Below are positions 31,840 through 38,159 of a stretch of DNA of 39,984 nucleotides, piece after piece (position 1 is the stretch's first letter; each line of letters opens with the position of its first letter). Under the pieces are notes generated by a model. It saw only the letters and a program-made list of their open reading frames with translations, was not told the DNA's origin and did no database searches. Source of the DNA: Flavobacteriales bacterium (GTDB taxonomy: Bacteria; Bacteroidota; Bacteroidia; Flavobacteriales_G; Salibacteraceae); assembly GCA_013204105.1 (NCBI GenBank), contig JABMOM010000027.1, forward strand, positions 1 through 39,984, read 5' to 3'. Made by a program: the position numbers and the translations under genes.

Positions 31840-31892
31840 AACGCTATGACCGAGATTAAAATCGTTCATTTGTTACGCGAAGATTGCCAATA

Positions 31893-33017
31893 ATGAAGAT
31901 CGGAATTGTGTGTTATCCAACCTTTGGTGGAAGTGGCGTAGTAGCTACTGAGCTTGGGCTGGAAATGGCCGCACTTGGCCATCAAGTTCACTTCATTTCC
32001 TACTCCCGTCCGGTCCGTTTGGATGCCAATGTGGCCAATGTTCACTACCATGAAGTTGTCGTGACCGACTACCCCCTCTTTGACTATTCTCCTTATGAGC
32101 TGGTTCTGACCTCGAAGTTGGTGAGTGTGGTCAAACAAGAAGGCCTAGACATTCTGCATGTTCACTACGCCATTCCACATGCTTCTGCGGCCTATATGGC
32201 AAAGCAAATTTTGCGCGAAGATGGGATTGACCTGCCGATCGTATGCACGCTGCACGGAACAGACATAACGCTCGTTGGCCGCGACGCTTCCTATGAACCC
32301 GTGATCACGTTCGCCATCAACAAAAGTGATGGAGTCACGGCCGTTTCTGAAAGCTTGAGAAAAGACACCTTGGAGCATTTCAAGGTGAAACGATCGATCG
32401 ATGTTATTCCGAACTTTATTAACCTCAAACGCTACGAAGGTTTGAAGCGGAATGAGATTCGAGAACGATACAGCAAGAACGGCCAACCGTTGATCCTGCA
32501 CGTTTCAAATTTCCGTAAGGTCAAACGCGTTCAGGACGTGGTTAAAGTCTTTGCAGGGGTTCGGAAACGGATGAATGCTTCTCTCTTGCTGGTTGGGGAT
32601 GGCCCAGAACGCTACAACATAGAACAAATGTGCCGCGACCTCGATGTTTGCGATGACATTCACTTTCTTGGTAAGAATTCGAAGGTTGAACAAATCCTGG
32701 TGAATGGCGACCTCTTTATCCTTCCATCAGAAACGGAAAGTTTCGGATTAGCGGCGTTGGAAGCGATGGCCGCTGGGATGCCCGTGATATCATCAAATTC
32801 AGGGGGTCTTCCTGAAGTAAATGAACACGGTTTTTCTGGATACCTGAGTGATGTCGGAGACATCGATGACATGATACACCACACGTTACAATTACTCTCA
32901 GACCCAAGTGAATTGCAACGATTCAAACAACAGGCGCGCGTGCAAGCGAAGAAATTTAGCCTGCCCGAGATACTACCGAAGTACATCAAACTCTATGAAG
33001 ATTTGCTGTCAGCGTAG
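31893..33017 (+). CDS. bshA: N-acetyl-alpha-D-glucosaminyl L-malate synthase BshA
   Basis: A 374-residue GT4 enzyme catalysing the first step of bacillithiol synthesis, the transfer of GlcNAc from UDP-GlcNAc to L-malate. The N-terminus MKIGIVCYPTFGGSGVVATE is diagnostic. HVHYAIPHASAAYMAK, VCTLHGTDITLVG and, in the donor domain, PSETESFGLAALEAMAAGMP (the EX7E region) follow. ATG 31893 is chosen over an in-frame TTG 9 bp upstream. It indicates that this organism uses bacillithiol as its low-molecular-weight thiol. bshB and bshC are not in the window. It lies 53 bp after the GH3 fusion gene. Confidence 0.95.
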   Translation: MKIGIVCYPTFGGSGVVATELGLEMAALGHQVHFISYSRPVRLDANVANVHYHEVVVTDYPLFDYSPYELVLTSKLVSVVKQEGLDILHVHYAIPHASAAYMAKQILREDGIDLPIVCTLHGTDITLVGRDASYEPVITFAINKSDGVTAVSESLRKDTLEHFKVKRSIDVIPNFINLKRYEGLKRNEIRERYSKNGQPLILHVSNFRKVKRVQDVVKVFAGVRKRMNASLLLVGDGPERYNIEQMCRDLDVCDDIHFLGKNSKVEQILVNGDLFILPSETESFGLAALEAMAAGMPVISSNSGGLPEVNEHGFSGYLSDVGDIDDMIHHTLQLLSDPSELQRFKQQARVQAKKFSLPEILPKYIKLYEDLLSA

Positions 33018-33028
33018 AATTCCGTTAG

Positions 33029-33062
33029 TTTGGAACGGAAGTTGTTTTACACATTAAAATTG
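33029..33062 (+). promoter_or_regulatory. Promoter of small Cys-rich lipoprotein
   Basis: TTTG (33029-33032), 22 bp, TAAAATTG (33055-33062): one mismatch to TAnnTTTG and spacing within the accepted range. Transcription would start about 2 nt before the ATG at 33069, so the leader is near zero. Confidence 0.45.
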
Positions 33063-33068
33063 AACGCC

Positions 33069-33275
33069 ATGAAAAAGCTCCTCCTTATCCTCGCCGTCGC
33101 TTTGTCAACTTCCGCTTGCTCTACTTGCTACGAATGCTACCAACAAGTTCCATTGATAGATGCCAATACCGGAGACACCATCGACTACACTACTGACACC
33201 GATGATTTTTGCACCGCTGACGCTTCAGAGGTTTCTCAAAAGGAATCGGACGGAGCAGTCTGCCAAGTACAGTGA
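33069..33275 (+). CDS. Small cysteine-rich lipoprotein (C-x2-C-Y-x-C type)
   Basis: A 68-residue lipoprotein: signal MKKLLLILAVALSTSAC, with the lipobox Cys starting the mature protein. The mature part opens CSTCYECYQQ and has four further cysteines (two near the start, two near the end), enough for two disulfides. It is related in pattern to the lipoproteins at 35051-35275 (CKKCYQC) and 36252-36458 (CTTDYVC). Function is unknown; envelope. Its stop abuts the stop of the convergent Lon-N gene as TGATCA. Confidence 0.7.
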   Translation: MKKLLLILAVALSTSACSTCYECYQQVPLIDANTGDTIDYTTDTDDFCTADASEVSQKESDGAVCQVQ

Positions 33276-33884
33276 TCAATTCAGAATAATACCGTTCTCC
33301 GCACTGCTCTCTTGAGCCAGCAGAAGGTTTAGGTATTTGATCGCGTTCATTAGAAATCGATCTTGTCGCTCGGAGGAATCCAGAAGAATCAATTTCATCT
33401 TATCCGTATTACTAAGCGCGGTACTCGCTGCAAGATCCACAAGCTTATAGTTCTTGATATTGGCTGGCTGAGGCTTTGTATTATAGCGCAACTGGATGTA
33501 TTCTCTGAAAACCTCTACGAGTTCATCGGAAGGCATTTCATTCAGGACTTCATTGTTCCATTCTCGAACATAGCCACCTGGATATAGTTTCTGCCCAAAA
33601 ACAGGCTCATAATCCTTGAGTTCGGCAATTCTTTTGGCCTCAATGATCACATCTAACTCTCCAGATTCATAGCGTTTCACAACTTTCAAGAGATGGCAGA
33701 TACTAACAAATCCTCGTTTTAATACATCATCTTCACAGGGAAGACCAAAGTCCAAGGCACTTCTTTCTGCTTCCTCAAACAGTTGGCGATAGCGGGGTTC
33801 AAAAATGTGCAAAGGCAACTGTTCTCCCGGAAGAAGGAAGATGTTCAATGGGAAAAATGGTATATGCAATATCTCCGTATTCAC
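33276..33884 (-). CDS. Lon N-terminal substrate-binding domain protein
   Basis: A 202-residue stand-alone LON substrate-binding domain (PUA-like): LHIPFFPLNIFLLPGEQLPL and HIFEPRYRQLFEEA match the N-terminus of Lon protease, without its ATPase or protease parts. The C-terminal half is helical (LVDLAASTALSNTDKMKLIL). Such proteins are widespread and largely uncharacterised. The start is GTG at 33884, since an in-frame TAG lies two codons upstream and no ATG is available. A weak promoter (TTG-N20-TATACTTA) lies upstream. Confidence 0.88.
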   Translation of the reverse strand: MNTEILHIPFFPLNIFLLPGEQLPLHIFEPRYRQLFEEAERSALDFGLPCEDDVLKRGFVSICHLLKVVKRYESGELDVIIEAKRIAELKDYEPVFGQKLYPGGYVREWNNEVLNEMPSDELVEVFREYIQLRYNTKPQPANIKNYKLVDLAASTALSNTDKMKLILLDSSERQDRFLMNAIKYLNLLLAQESSAENGIILN

Positions 33885-33923
33885 AATCTAATAAACGCTT
33901 GTAAGTATAAAAGAGTTTATCCG

Positions 33924-35069
33924 TTAAAACAATGGCCATATCTCATCTTGTCGTAAATAACCACCTCGGATCGAATTGGTGAGCACGATGGCAACCTTGT
34001 CATCTGAACCGGACATCCAGAAATAAGATCGAAATCCACGCCACCAACCATTGTGAAAAATCAGCGTGTCAGATTCCATCGGTCGAATTCTCCAACCCAA
34101 GCCATAGAATTGACCATTGCCGCTGCGCGTTGACGGCCGCATGGCTTCTTGGAGCAATGCCGCAGACCAGAGCTGAGCTTTACGCAGTCCCTTGTACAAT
34201 TTGAACAGATCTCCTACCGAACTGTAGAGGCTCTTATCTCCAATCACCGCATCCAGGTAAAATGGGCGTTTAGGATCACCATTTGGATAGTGGCCCAACA
34301 CACGGTATTGATCAGATGGCCTAAGCCAAGGATTCAAATAGTGGGTGCTGTCCATCTGTAGCGGAAGAAATATCTCACGTTCCATGAATGCCTGAAAGGT
34401 GAGCCCACTCACCCGCTCAATGAGGACAGGGAGAAGCGCATAATTCGTATTGCAATAATCAAAACGCTGATGAGGTGGGTGGTACTTTGGCACTTGCTCG
34501 CATCGAATGATGTCATACACATCGTCATTGCTCATGAACGAATCAGGGTTGTTCCAAAGGCTGTCAGTGACGTAGATATAGTTGCCCATTCCGCTGGTGT
34601 GGTCTAACAGACTGCGTACCGTAATATCTTCATCGGGGAAATCAAAGAGATAATCTCGGACAGGAGCATCGAGCGCAAGCTTTCCCTGTTCAACCAATCG
34701 TAAAATCCCCAGCGCGGTGATGGGTTTTGACAAGGACGCCAATTGAAAGACATCATCCAAACGAAGGGTGTCAGTTCCTCGCAGCCTGGCCTTCCCAATG
34801 GCAAAACGACTGACGGTGTCGTGGGATGAAAGTAAAACAACCCCATTGAATCGCCCCTCATTGTGCAATGAGTCGAAGTAAGCCCGAGCTGCTCGTCGAC
34901 CAACCTGAACCACCACCTCCTGCTTAGTCTCCGGCAATCGCAATTCAGCCTTGACAGAAGCGTCTTGTGAGCAAGCCACACATAAGGCGACTATCGCAAA
35001 CAAAAAACCCCGATGTTTCGGGGTTAATATCTTTAGATGGGCAGTGTACCTCACTTCACTTCGGCGCAT
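33924..35069 (-). CDS. Serine hydrolase lipoprotein (beta-lactamase/class C PBP fold)
   Basis: A 381-residue predicted lipoprotein. The n-region is long (MRRSEVRYTAHLKILTPKHR), followed by a short hydrophobic stretch FLFAIVALCVAC with the likely lipid Cys. The hydrolase motifs are SLSK (ASLSKPITALG), YCN (DYCNTNYALL) and HNG (FHNGWWRGF). Predicted periplasmic D-Ala-D-Ala peptidase or esterase. ATG 35069 overlaps the upstream lipoprotein gene by 19 bp. An intrinsic terminator of that gene (35001-35025) lies inside codons about 15-23 of this one and encodes part of the n-region, so expression may depend on readthrough or coupling. Confidence 0.83.
   Translation of the reverse strand: MRRSEVRYTAHLKILTPKHRGFLFAIVALCVACSQDASVKAELRLPETKQEVVVQVGRRAARAYFDSLHNEGRFNGVVLLSSHDTVSRFAIGKARLRGTDTLRLDDVFQLASLSKPITALGILRLVEQGKLALDAPVRDYLFDFPDEDITVRSLLDHTSGMGNYIYVTDSLWNNPDSFMSNDDVYDIIRCEQVPKYHPPHQRFDYCNTNYALLPVLIERVSGLTFQAFMEREIFLPLQMDSTHYLNPWLRPSDQYRVLGHYPNGDPKRPFYLDAVIGDKSLYSSVGDLFKLYKGLRKAQLWSAALLQEAMRPSTRSGNGQFYGLGWRIRPMESDTLIFHNGWWRGFRSYFWMSGSDDKVAIVLTNSIRGGYLRQDEIWPLF
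35001..35025 (-). terminator. Intrinsic terminator inside the serine hydrolase 5' coding region
   Basis: A perfect 8-bp stem AACCCCGA/TCGGGGTT with a 4-nt loop (35006-35025) is followed on the minus strand by TTTTTTG. It lies 25 bp after the stop of the 74-residue lipoprotein gene and 43 bp inside the serine hydrolase frame, whose codons read through the stem (LTPKHRGF). Confidence 0.7.
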
Positions 35070-35275
35070 GAACAAGTAAAGTCTTCGAAAGCCCCAAACT
35101 CGACTTCACAACGCTCCTGATAATTATCATAATCGCCTTTTGACCCGCAAATTTCCGGATAGGAATAAGCAGCCACTTGATCTTCATCCAAAGCGGTGCA
35201 CTGGTAACATTTTTTACAGGAGGACATGCCAATCACCAAGGCGGTGAGTCCCAAAATTATCGCTACTCTCTTCAT
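35051..35275 (-). CDS. Small cysteine-rich lipoprotein (C-x2-C-Y-x-C type)
   Basis: A 74-residue lipoprotein: signal MKRVAIILGLTALVIGMSSC, the final Cys being the lipid anchor. The mature protein begins CKKCYQC and has six further cysteines (including YPEICG, QERCE and FTCSCAE), enough for three disulfides. ATG 35275 is chosen; the frame opens slightly upstream but MKRVAIIL is the natural signal start. It lies between the MauE-thioredoxin protein gene and the serine hydrolase gene on the same strand. Function is unknown. Confidence 0.72.
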   Translation of the reverse strand: MKRVAIILGLTALVIGMSSCKKCYQCTALDEDQVAAYSYPEICGSKGDYDNYQERCEVEFGAFEDFTCSCAEVK

Positions 35276-35317
35276 ATTAATCATCAATTTTCTCAACGCA
35301 AGAAGTGCGAATATAGT

Positions 35318-36244
35318 CTAGTCTAAAGCGAGTAGTTCATTGAGTAAACGAATATTCACATCACGTCCTTTCCATTTCTTAGTGACTTCTCCGGCTTCCA
35401 AATAGAGGACCGTGGGAAAAGTGCCATCGATCGCGCCGATCAACTCCCGATCCTTTGTCTGTACGTAATGAAAGTCCTTGATTCCTGTTTCTTCCACGAA
35501 GAAATCTACCCCTGCGTCCTCTCCAACAATGATGATACGTAGGTCATCCGCAACATCTTTCGGAGCAAGCGTAGCGATGAATGAACTCAATTGTGCGCAA
35601 TGAATGCAATTCGACAACATAACCACCACCGTCTTATTGCCTTCTGTCATTGGAGATTCAGCACCAAACGATTCTCTACTCAGCATTTCTAGGTCGACTT
35701 CAAAATCCGCATTCCGAGAGAACGCTGGCATGGGTTCGATAAGGAGCAACACAGGAATGGCCAAAACAGCGAGCAAAGGACCCGCAACGCGCAAGCTCCA
35801 TTCTTCTGCCCACGAGGATCGAATCAAAAGCATTCCTCCGAGCAGCATGAATCCGAAGTTCTTGATCAAGCTACTAGGTCCGTCCAAGGGAATCAATTCG
35901 CCAAAGCATCCGCAATCAGCATCCCCTTCTCCTTGTAAAATTTGCATGAATAGGAAGACTTGAAAGGCGCTGAGTAATCCAAGACTAAACCAAAGTGAAA
36001 AGCGAAGTTGATATCCACTCAGAATAAAAACGCCCAGTCCAAACTCAGTGACAAGCAGGATGCGCGAAGCAATGGGAACAAAGGCCCACGAAACTCCAGC
36101 TTGATGAACGAGAATCAATTCGAAATAATCCAGCGGAAAGAGCTTTAAAATTGCCGAAGCAATGAACAGGGCCCCGTAGAACATCCTTACAAATGGGAAA
36201 CTTCTCTCTAGAGTAGAAGGAGCATTTTCTTCTAGGTGATCCAA
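35318..36244 (-). CDS. MauE/DoxX-type membrane protein fused to a thioredoxin-like domain
   Basis: A 308-residue inner-membrane protein. The first about 170 residues hold four or five membrane helices of the MauE/DoxX superfamily, with the MauE-like cysteine pair in DADCGCFGEL after the third helix. The C-terminal 110 residues form a periplasmic thioredoxin-like domain with CIHC (MLSNCIHCAQLSSF) and the cis-Pro segment GTFPTVLYL. MauE is needed for disulfide formation in methylamine dehydrogenase (known). Here a thiol-disulfide exchange role is inferred, possibly for the flanking Cys-rich lipoproteins. No ATG fits the N-terminus; TTG 36244 is used, 7 bp after the upstream lipoprotein gene. 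Met21 is a less likely start, at the edge of helix 1. Confidence 0.8.
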   Translation of the reverse strand: MDHLEENAPSTLERSFPFVRMFYGALFIASAILKLFPLDYFELILVHQAGVSWAFVPIASRILLVTEFGLGVFILSGYQLRFSLWFSLGLLSAFQVFLFMQILQGEGDADCGCFGELIPLDGPSSLIKNFGFMLLGGMLLIRSSWAEEWSLRVAGPLLAVLAIPVLLLIEPMPAFSRNADFEVDLEMLSRESFGAESPMTEGNKTVVVMLSNCIHCAQLSSFIATLAPKDVADDLRIIIVGEDAGVDFFVEETGIKDFHYVQTKDRELIGAIDGTFPTVLYLEAGEVTKKWKGRDVNIRLLNELLALD

Positions 36245-36251
36245 TCTTCTC

Positions 36252-36458
36252 TTATTTATCCTCCATCCAAGTGCAGATGCTGCGATCCTCGCATTCTACC
36301 TCTACCAATTCGGCTTCACTCTTTCTCAATCCTGGGTAGTGCGTGGCCTCGTTTAAGGTAGTTCCTTCTGCCTCCACTTCACAGACACAAACGTAATCCG
36401 TTGTGCAAGACGACATCGCTACCACAAGGAGCGCACATATGACCATCGCATACTTCAT
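36252..36458 (-). CDS. Small cysteine-containing lipoprotein
   Basis: A 68-residue lipoprotein: signal MKYAMVICALLVVAMSSC, then mature CTTDYVCVCEVEAEG with four further cysteines (VCVC, VECE, SICTW), an even number. The start resembles the C-x2-C-Y-x-C lipoproteins nearby, with Asp in place of the second Cys and an extra Cys two residues on. First gene of the unit with the MauE-thioredoxin gene. Function is unknown. Confidence 0.68.
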   Translation of the reverse strand: MKYAMVICALLVVAMSSCTTDYVCVCEVEAEGTTLNEATHYPGLRKSEAELVEVECEDRSICTWMEDK

Positions 36459-36476
36459 TTCATCATAGCTTTAAAA

Positions 36477-36484
36477 CAAATGTA
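36477..36484 (-). promoter_or_regulatory. -7 element TACATTTG of the MauE-lipoprotein operon
   Basis: A perfect TAnnTTTG match on the minus strand, 18 nt before the ATG at 36458. No TTG box lies at the usual distance upstream, so only the -7 element is supported. Confidence 0.4.
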
Positions 36485-36503
36485 CGAGCTTCCGGATTCA
36501 GCC

Positions 36504-36534
36504 TTGGGCTCCTCCTGTCAATTCTTTAACTTCG
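36504..36534 (+). promoter_or_regulatory. Promoter candidate of the unknown helical protein gene
   Basis: TTG (36504-36506), 20 bp, TAACTTCG (36527-36534): one mismatch to TAnnTTTG. Transcription would start near 36539, 14 nt before the ATG at 36553. Confidence 0.4.
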
Positions 36535-36552
36535 GCATTCACAGGCTTTATC

Positions 36553-36993
36553 ATGGGCTACACACTGAAAGGACTCAAATACGATGTGAAGGTTCTCCTC
36601 GCTTGGGGAGAGAGTATTTCCGGCAATAAGAAGATTACGGAGTTTCTAATGAAGAACGGCTTTCCTGAATTAGGACTCTTTCATTACGCGCTCAGAAATG
36701 AAGAGCGCAGCAGGGATTGGCTGATGGAGAATAAATTTCCACACTTGCTCGCACTCATCAGTGCTACAGAAGGGAGCAAAGACGCACGAAAATGGCTTGC
36801 TCTGCAGGGATTTGATCTGCTGTTGGATATGGCCCTTTCTGCAGATGGTGATGAAGAAGCCTACACCAGAATGCTTGGTGAAGACATGCAAATATTTGCC
36901 GTACTCTCAAAGAAAATCGAGTCGATCAAGAACGAAATTGAGGCGCGGAAATTTGATCCGCACAAGTACTCCAGTTCACAGGGGGGTGGATGA
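36553..36993 (+). CDS. Hypothetical helical protein
   Basis: A 146-residue cytoplasmic protein that I do not recognise. It is strongly helical, and pieces such as KKITEFLMKNGFPELGLF, RSRDWLMENKFPHLLAL and DARKWLALQGFDLLLDM form a threefold pattern of about 35 residues (x-W/F-L-x-x-x-G/K-F-x-x-L), which suggests a small helical repeat. The C-terminus is charged and ends in a Ser/Gly tail. It has its own promoter candidate and a TGATCA junction with the convergent MORN gene. Coding nature is supported by a sensible start and by good codon-like composition. Confidence 0.65.
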   Translation: MGYTLKGLKYDVKVLLAWGESISGNKKITEFLMKNGFPELGLFHYALRNEERSRDWLMENKFPHLLALISATEGSKDARKWLALQGFDLLLDMALSADGDEEAYTRMLGEDMQIFAVLSKKIESIKNEIEARKFDPHKYSSSQGGG

Positions 36994-37458
36994 TCAGTCT
37001 TTCAAGGCCTTGTTATTGCTGAACTGCCCTTTCCAAAAAGTTCCATCTGAGTACTGCATCTTGCCCTTTCCGGCCATCTGTCCGTCCTTGAACTGCCCTT
37101 TATAGATCCGGCCATCTGCCCAGCGCATCTCCCCTCTTCCATTCATTTCGTCCACTTTCCATCGACCATGGTATTTACGCCCATTGCTCCAGCTTTGAAA
37201 CCCTTTGCCATGGCGCATTCCATTTTGCCAGCTACCGTCGTAATAGCTGCTGTCTGGCCATACCATGTTTCCTTTTCCGCTGAACTCACCGTTGAAAATC
37301 TCACCGTAGTATTTAGAGCCATTTTCCCAAAAAATAGTGTGAAAACCATCGGGAAGACTGCGAATGTCATTTCCATTCACCTCTTGGGCAGAGGCGTTGA
37401 AACCAGCAACTAGAACCAAAAGAAAGAAAGCCGCGAATTGAAAGTACCTCATCCGCAT
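36994..37458 (-). CDS. Secreted MORN-repeat protein
   Basis: A 154-residue protein with a signal peptide ending near FNASAQE. Four MORN repeats of 23 residues follow, starting near residue 50: YYGEIFNGEFSGKGNMVWPD, YDGSWQNGMRHGKGFQSWSN, YHGRWKVDEMNGRGEMRWAD and YKGQFKDGQMAGKGKMQYSD. A partial fifth (FWKGQFSNN) ends the array. MORN repeats form a beta-hairpin sheet that binds lipid or protein; this copy is probably periplasmic or on the surface. It lies 2 bp downstream of the head-GIN gene. Confidence 0.88.
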   Translation of the reverse strand: MRMRYFQFAAFFLLVLVAGFNASAQEVNGNDIRSLPDGFHTIFWENGSKYYGEIFNGEFSGKGNMVWPDSSYYDGSWQNGMRHGKGFQSWSNGRKYHGRWKVDEMNGRGEMRWADGRIYKGQFKDGQMAGKGKMQYSDGTFWKGQFSNNKALKD

Positions 37459-37460
37459 TC

Positions 37461-38159
37461 CTATAGCTTGGAAACAGATCCAGCTCCCGTGATGCTTTGC
37501 TCAATCTCTGGATCACCGACGTACTTAACATCACCAGCACCGGTAACGTCAACCTTGAGCCGATCAGCAACGGCAATCTCTACATTCCCTGCTCCTGTAA
37601 TGTCAATGTCAGCGCGCTTCACATGCAATTCAGAAGCTTCGATGTCGCCAGCCCCTGTTATCTTAATATGGGCTTCATCTGCTTCGCCGGTTAATTCCAA
37701 TTCTCCTCCGCCAGAAATTTGAATGATGATTTCGTCTACCTGGACATCTAGCGCTCCATCACAGGCCCCCGAGACGTCCAATTCAAATGATTTTTCCTTA
37801 ATGGTTTCGTTCGAAGAAATTTCAATAGCTCCAGAAACATCAATTTCCTTAAGGTCCTTGTAATGGATGCGAAGCAGGAGCTTCTCTGCTTCTAAAAATT
37901 TATTTTCGGTATCAATGGACAGTTCCCCGTCCTCCACCTCGATGGAAATATGTTCGTGCAGGTTCTCATCCGTGATCACTTCAATGGAGCTCCCTCCTTT
38001 GATCAACTCAACCTGAAAAACACCGGAAATCTCAATTTCATCAAAAGCATCCAGCTCATGGCTGACCTCAACGACGTTGCCATTTCCTTCGATTCGCTCT
38101 CCGCAGCTGGAAAGTAATCCAGTAAGTGCGAGTACAATAAGTGAATATCCAAGTTTCAT
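37461..38159 (-). CDS. Head GIN domain (DUF2807) lipoprotein
   Basis: A 232-residue lipoprotein with lipobox LLSSC. DUF2807 proteins are right-handed beta-helices formed from short repeats. Here the repeated units are visible as ITGAGDIEAS, ITGAGNVEIA, VTGAGDVKYV and ITGAGSVSKL, the last four of the protein, and DVSGAIEISS and ISGGGELELT before them. The role of the family is unknown; Bacteroidota often encode several copies in the envelope. First gene of a pair with the MORN gene and divergent from pepE. Confidence 0.9.
   Translation of the reverse strand: MKLGYSLIVLALTGLLSSCGERIEGNGNVVEVSHELDAFDEIEISGVFQVELIKGGSSIEVITDENLHEHISIEVEDGELSIDTENKFLEAEKLLLRIHYKDLKEIDVSGAIEISSNETIKEKSFELDVSGACDGALDVQVDEIIIQISGGGELELTGEADEAHIKITGAGDIEASELHVKRADIDITGAGNVEIAVADRLKVDVTGAGDVKYVGDPEIEQSITGAGSVSKL

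Follow-up and report, generated by a model that had tools for sequence, protein, structure and literature searches.

A conserved Bacteroidota gene cluster that couples a MauE–thioredoxin membrane protein to small lipoproteins with even cysteine numbers: a candidate disulfide-forming system

Contig JABMOM010000027.1 of the Flavobacteriales bacterium assembly GCA_013204105.1, which we analysed as one entire contig of 39,984 nucleotides (the window), carries on its minus strand three adjacent genes: LP3 for a small type A lipoprotein, the gene of a membrane protein in which a MauE domain is fused to a thioredoxin (Trx) domain (MauE–Trx), and LP2 for a small type B lipoprotein. LP3 – MauE–Trx – LP2 is a real and widely conserved gene cluster. 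We lean, with slightly better than even confidence, towards the idea that it encodes a dedicated disulfide-forming system for the small lipoproteins; oxidation, the electron acceptor and the function of the lipoproteins are what we infer from the sequences. According to the mechanism that we suggest, the exported lipoproteins would reach the envelope with reduced cysteines, and the periplasmic Trx domain with its CxHC motif would oxidise these cysteines pairwise, giving two disulfides in the type A proteins and in LP1, a separate small lipoprotein encoded nearby, and three in most type B proteins. The CGC pair, predicted to lie where the MauE helices reach the periplasm, would then re-oxidise the reduced Trx pair, and MauE would send the electrons into the membrane, probably to quinone. 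The lipoproteins would be the main clients, and their disulfides would keep a very small beta-beta-alpha-beta fold together at the cell envelope. The earlier note on this DNA had read the cluster as a disulfide-forming or reducing system with the lipoproteins as its clients: linkage and cysteine conservation lend support to a dedicated disulfide system, oxidation is the direction that we favour, and the lipoproteins are presumed clients.

A comparison with the open reading frame (ORF) list placed all four genes, LP1 included, where the earlier note had put them, and its counts of mature cysteines, i.e. four in LP3, six in LP2 and four in LP1 after the lipid cysteine, were correct as well. On the minus strand, LP3 (36252..36458, 68 amino acids, recognised by its ORF and the family alignment) is transcribed first, followed by MauE–Trx (35318..36244, 308 amino acids, recognised by its ORF and the Pfam MauE match) and by LP2 (35051..35284, recognised by its ORF and alignment). 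The gap between LP3 and MauE–Trx is 7 bp and that between MauE–Trx and LP2 is 33 bp, or 42 bp if LP2 starts at the alternative ATG at 35275. The start codon of MauE–Trx is TTG, with an in-frame ATG at 36184. The closest named match is an 88% identical protein in a metagenome-assembled genome of an uncultured Flavobacteriales bacterium.

The linkage of the two kinds of genes was followed in a sample of 120 genomes, the own one included. At an E value of 1e-8, MauE–Trx was found in 39 of them, among these all 12 other genus members in the sample. The loci of the best 30 of the 39 matches, a selection that leans to close relatives, were taken with up to 1.5 kb of flanking DNA, and in 29 of them, all but locus L020 of genome G014, at least one flanking ORF has a lipobox and four or more mature cysteines. 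Cysteine-rich small lipoproteins might simply be common all over the genome and lie next to MauE–Trx by chance, and similar lipoproteins do occur elsewhere: a 400-kb sample of G009, the nearest genome, contains 6 lipobox ORFs with at least four mature cysteines, some of which are probably not genes. The flanks of the 30 loci contain 50 such ORFs in about 86 kb, a density about 39 times higher than in this one control genome. We therefore rejected a chance background, and the fact that the linkage was regained when starting from the lipoproteins also makes such an artefact highly improbable.

For the search from the lipoprotein side, linked copies served as seeds of profiles for two types: type A, whose genes mostly lie upstream of MauE–Trx, and type B, with six cysteines and genes on the downstream side. 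The profiles A1 and A2 recover their own seeds by construction; the informative hits are those beyond the seeds. At an E value of 0.01, type A matched 48 and type B 28 of the 120 genomes. Divergent MauE–Trx proteins that had been missed at 1e-8 lie beside the lipoprotein hits in G026, G041 and G089, and in G086, likewise missed, the positions of MauE–Trx and lipoprotein coincide. MauE–Trx is listed for 43 genomes with a long single profile match of at least 91 bits, as counted by hand; the matches in G008 and G107, which run off contig ends, were kept, and partial, split or weaker ones were left out, such as those in G056 (124 bits, positions 2-151), G102, G085, G079, G118, G111, G071 and G015. 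Adding the left-out genomes other than G071 and G015 would lower the linked fraction. A lipoprotein is encoded within 3 kb of MauE–Trx in 37 of the 43 genomes, and these 37 belong to 14 families, so that the linkage test set in advance by the earlier note came out in its favour; the genomes without such a neighbour are G014, G030, G039, G081, G107 (at a contig edge) and G115. The arrangement is equally constant: All 48 linked type A genes are on the same strand as MauE–Trx and 43 of them upstream, and 20 of the 21 linked type B genes are on the same strand and 20 downstream. Among the 120 genomes, 39 have both MauE–Trx and type A, 4 only MauE–Trx, 9 only type A and 68 neither (Fisher p 2.3e-18, uncorrected for relatedness).

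We also compared 21 loci of 5 to 16 kb all against all, 13 from the genus (of the window, the part from 27 kb on) and 8 from outside, which had been selected for carrying both a lipoprotein and MauE–Trx. The lipoproteins and MauE–Trx are the only groups present in all 21 loci, and no third gene is common to all of them. This bears on the possibility that MauE–Trx and the lipoproteins are physiological neighbours only, serving one envelope response without any mutual reaction. The occurrence of unlinked copies of both would be in agreement with this idea, but gene order and strand are conserved across 14 families, no other neighbour is shared by all 21 loci, the redox pairs of MauE–Trx are invariant, and none of the lipoproteins read has an odd number of cysteines. 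We thus regard mere neighbourhood as quite improbable.

LP1 to LP3 and the members of the family have a signal peptide that ends in a lipobox cysteine, a sequence pattern by which they are predicted lipoproteins. LP3 matches the type A profile with an E value of 1.6e-8 and LP2 the type B profile with 8.3e-20, each being itself a row of the respective profile. From the lipid cysteine on, the type A pattern of LP3 reads C-x-x-x-Y-x-C-x-C ... C ... C. The start C-x2-[C/D]-Y-x-C, which had been noted before as common to the three lipoproteins, is present and belongs to a broader signature, C-x-x-x-[mostly Y or W]-x-C. All 33 aligned type A proteins share the four mature cysteines without exception, and all 11 aligned type B proteins have six. 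In the predicted structure of the type A member L030 (beta-beta-alpha-beta; mean predicted local distance difference test score, pLDDT, 89.4), C7 and C9 are located on strand 1, C35 in the helix and C45 in the last strand.

The numbers of cysteines are even throughout. Of the 147 profile hits, 130 were read (118 plus 12, with the lipid cysteine placed according to the family alignment) and 17 were not; after the lipid cysteine there are two cysteines in 2 of the 130 proteins, four in 98, six in 29, eight in 1, and an odd number in none, in agreement with the expectation that the cysteines are conserved in homologues. Of the two proteins with two cysteines, that of G002 ends at a stop inside the matched stretch, and that of G106 is broken by a stop. 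Where two cysteines are left, they are not always the same two: G002:C158 has C7 and the helix cysteine, and three proteins encoded downstream at L015, L017 and L025, which are not part of the profile counts, have C7 and the last cysteine. A test for even cysteine numbers exists for whole genomes, and we used a crude form of it as a yardstick by applying a simple signal-peptide and ORF rule to 990 kb of one genome, the close relative G009. Even (above zero) and odd numbers were found there in 53 and 69 of 160 exported proteins, in 24 and 17 of 55 lipoproteins, and in 191 and 204 of 464 cytosolic proteins, respectively. Since the exported proteins have no even bias, the evenness seems to be peculiar to the lipoprotein family, and general oxidative folding is not indicated in G009.

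The predicted type A fold matched no solved fold at an E value of 0.001, and the lipoprotein sequence gave nothing convincing against the PDB (two antibody light chains, E values of 0.29 and 0.79). A Pfam scan of the 33 type A members hit one family in one member (E 0.0073), and PG1828 (21.5 of 50 bits, under the cut-off, the best NCBIfam hit seen with its cut-off) and other NCBIfam families were rejected as weak matches to the N-terminal half. LP1, LP2 and LP3 have no match above the cut-off in Pfam or NCBIfam; LP2 and LP1 are the members of type B and of the LP1 group that were scanned. As judged from these scans, the type A lipoproteins, with about 50 mature residues, are a family that is not modelled in Pfam or NCBIfam. 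Several additional small lipoproteins were seen. The own genome encodes a second type A protein that is not linked to the cluster (L104, G000:C9:18704-18901; four cysteines after the lipid cysteine), and similar unlinked copies occur in G001, G003, G007 and G009. The loci L023, L027 and L031, from one genus, have beside MauE–Trx a further type with the start C-x-x-x-Y-E-C-C-Y and four mature cysteines, which partly resembles LP1. G009 encodes two other small lipoproteins away from MauE–Trx (C1:855775-856155 and 741894-742094), which start with C-x-x-C-x-x-C and have six and four cysteines, respectively.

The membrane protein matches Pfam MauE (PF07291) over residues 18-141 with an E value of 1.6e-20 (74.1 bits, cut-off 27), has about five predicted membrane helices, and carries the motifs CGCFG at residues 111-115 and CIHC at residues 213-216. 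Neither VKOR (PF07884) nor DsbB (PF02600) matched it at an E value of 1, and its Trx domain had no Pfam match at the same threshold. With the family profile, the best of the solved sequences is the ResA variant 3c71 (E 3.2e-5), which according to its title bears a CPHC motif. An AlphaFold2 model (mean pLDDT 83.5, predicted template modelling score 0.60) agrees with this assignment: Its Trx part resembles ResA in a Foldseek comparison (E 3.1e-5, template modelling score 0.65 of the target), and CcmG and StoA are also among the solved folds like it. In the first 30 homologues, the CxC and CxxC pairs are invariant, the Trx motif reads CxHC in 27, and P277, probably the cis-proline of the Trx fold, is present in all 30. 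MauE–Trx thus has the Trx fold, the CxxC pair and the proline of a thioredoxin-fold thiol-disulfide oxidoreductase. In the 30 aligned proteins, the CGC loop, the preceding loop and the Trx linker have on average 2.6 to 4.0 acidic residues and 0.3 to 0.9 basic ones; in two short turns on the opposite side, the averages are 1.8 and 3.3 for basic residues and 0 to 0.7 for acidic ones. Because of these acid-rich segments and the turns rich in lysine and arginine opposite to them, the CGC loop and the Trx domain are predicted to be periplasmic by the positive-inside rule. The MauE-like N-terminal domain of the BT_3928 family (NF045576) matches as well; the score is far under the cut-off (53.2 versus 250 bits), and membership in this family was rejected. 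The own genome encodes a second, separate MauE-like protein, possibly BT_3928-like (G000:C19:17297-17629, in a frame of 451 amino acids), with a weak match to the MauE–Trx profile, and partial matches of this kind are listed for many relatives.

The redox setting of these bacteria helps to decide on the direction of the reaction. VKOR is encoded in 4 of the 120 relatives, in none of the genus, the own genome included, and in none of the 43 genomes with MauE–Trx. DsbB was found in 1 of 60 relatives searched, the same genome being the 1 of 29 MauE–Trx genomes searched, and it is absent from the own genome. DsbD_TM is present in 57 of the 60 relatives, the own genome among them. Judged by these domain searches, the reductive arm is present and most of the genomes lack the two known oxidative arms that are linked to quinone; of DsbA-like donors, the Trx domain is the one that was considered, and others were not searched for. 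This setting fits an oxidative role of MauE–Trx and does not prove it. The sole DsbB genome of the 60 is G014 (G014:C1:25864-26304), whose MauE–Trx locus L020 has no linked lipoprotein, a single case.

MauE–Trx might instead work in the opposite direction, by feeding electrons to the periplasm and keeping the lipoprotein cysteines reduced for metal binding or thiol chemistry. The closest solved Trx folds, ResA, CcmG and StoA, act as reductants in their pathways, and the four invariant cysteines in a compact predicted fold (C-x-C ... C ... C) could form a four-ligand site. On the other side, with DsbD_TM nearly all of these bacteria already have a reductive domain in the membrane, the Trx motif is CxHC in nearly all homologues, and cysteine numbers of two, four, six and eight with loose spacing, and never odd, fit pairs better than one metal site. 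We favour oxidation on the grounds of the near absence of DsbB and VKOR, the presence of the DsbD domain, the CxHC motif and the even cysteine numbers, and consider the reductive alternative unlikely. According to another proposal, the lipoproteins are themselves redox-active and carry disulfides from MauE–Trx in the inner membrane to outer-membrane proteins rather than being the end clients. Such a relay would suit lipid-anchored proteins of this very small size whose genes occur in tandem and next to MauE–Trx, and it would also suit the near absence of VKOR and DsbB from the MauE–Trx genomes. However, the exported proteins of G009, which lack an even bias, offer no large visible pool of clients, and all four type A cysteines are invariant, as in structural disulfides. 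A relay is even less probable in our judgement than a reductive system.

Several observations weigh against a disulfide-forming system dedicated to the lipoproteins. First, the solved relatives of the Trx domain, ResA, CcmG and StoA, mostly have a reducing role in the pathways to which they belong. Second, some divergent MauE–Trx proteins beside type A lipoproteins deviate in the membrane part: L049 (G041) and L057 (G089) have CYGC and CYLC (VKOR-like), respectively, in place of CGC, and L059 (G026) has no pair at this place and a single cysteine in a later helix. In L044 (G015), the membrane part is shortened. The CxxC of Trx is retained in all four divergent proteins; as far as the sequences tell, the Trx domain is the constant part of the family and the membrane electron exit varies. 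Type A lipoproteins were also seen at L044 in G015 and L163 in G071; the membrane–thioredoxin protein close by is shortened in both, and its match is confined to the C-terminal part of the profile. Third, the linkage counts ignore phylogeny. Fourth, the partners occur without each other: 43 of 91 type A hits in genomes with MauE–Trx are unlinked paralogues, type A is found in 9 genomes without a listed long MauE–Trx match, and neither the MauE–Trx locus of G115 nor any of seven long MauE–Trx loci in another class (family f66) has such a lipoprotein beside it. In 395 phylum-wide genomes, the MauE–Trx profile matched 129 (E 1e-10), among the matches listed mostly with the MauE half only, and type A matched 3, the own genome included (E 1e-4). 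Since there are long relatives without lipoproteins, the oxidoreductase is not always tied to them and is the broader of the two. Finally, the genomes without MauE–Trx mostly lack the known oxidases, too (VKOR in 4 of 77, DsbB in 0 of 31 searched), and these bacteria may need no general oxidase. This last point lowered our confidence in disulfide formation very slightly.

Two genes near the cluster deserve a separate comment. The bacillithiol glycosyltransferase gene bshA (31884..33017, plus strand; TIGR03999, E 7.9e-163) had been mentioned as a suggestive neighbour. It is found beside the cluster in 13 of 13 genus loci and in 0 of the 8 others; this hint was not borne out, and we rejected bshA as a part of the system, its position being genus synteny. 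LP1 (33069..33275, plus strand) is located 3' of bshA. LP2 and LP3 flank MauE–Trx on the same strand and the third lipoprotein gene is about 2 kb away, as had been described; LP1 is, however, encoded on the other strand and does not belong to the cluster proper. Orthologues of LP1 are present in all 13 genus loci, each with four cysteines after the lipid cysteine, and LP1 is a companion seen in genus loci only. The LP1 group, bshA and a group with a beta-lactamase-fold gene are confined to these 13 loci.

If the cluster indeed forms disulfides, MauE, which was named from methylamine oxidation, would gain a wider role. With the oxidase and client genes in one unit, this reading is directly testable. 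The work also defines a family of tiny lipoproteins that Pfam and NCBIfam models lack. As a more tentative extension, which we would sooner doubt than accept, MauE–Trx might make disulfides de novo as a third kind of generator next to DsbB and VKOR, linked to quinone through its MauE membrane domain, and might be the main or only one in many Bacteroidota devoid of these two, with the lipoproteins as the principal class of disulfide-bonded envelope proteins. Among the open-licence papers listed in our literature searches, none dealt with a MauE–Trx/lipoprotein operon, and none gave an account of disulfide formation, if there is any, in Bacteroidota that lack DsbB and VKOR.

In the maturation of methylamine dehydrogenase, MauD is the thioredoxin-like partner of MauE. 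The protein studied here is like MauE/MauD (van der Palen et al. 1997, as cited in PMC7794033) in combining a MauE-family membrane protein with a thioredoxin-like part; unlike in that system, MauE and Trx are fused in one protein, and small lipoproteins are presumed as the clients. Among the ten window proteins scanned, from 31884 to 38159, there are no mau genes or methylamine dehydrogenase; the rest of the genome was not searched. The earlier note stated that MauE is known to be required for disulfide formation in this enzyme, which is stronger than the wording in the relevant passage of PMC7794033, where a role of MauE in forming the disulfides of the beta subunit is given as speculation. 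The same passage reports candidate families of ribosomally synthesized and post-translationally modified peptides (RiPPs) in Streptomyces that contain MauE homologues with small precursor genes, and its authors propose a modification of the precursors. Both those families, as that passage presents them, and our cluster combine MauE with small genes; here, the phylum is another one, and lipoproteins take the place of the predicted RiPP precursors. A further candidate source on MauE, PMC6083913, was rejected, as 'Maue' is the name of an author there.

VKOR–thioredoxin fusions and the DsbB/DsbA couple combine a membrane oxidase pair with a periplasmic donor of the Trx fold, two cysteine pairs in a relay. 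MauE–Trx has the same two-pair layout; the membrane domain is MauE, with CGC rather than CxxC in most members. Finally, DsbL/DsbI with ASST and BdbA/BdbB with sublancin are oxidoreductases encoded beside their own client. The adjacency to a presumed client is shared by the cluster described here, which uses another enzyme family and another type of client.

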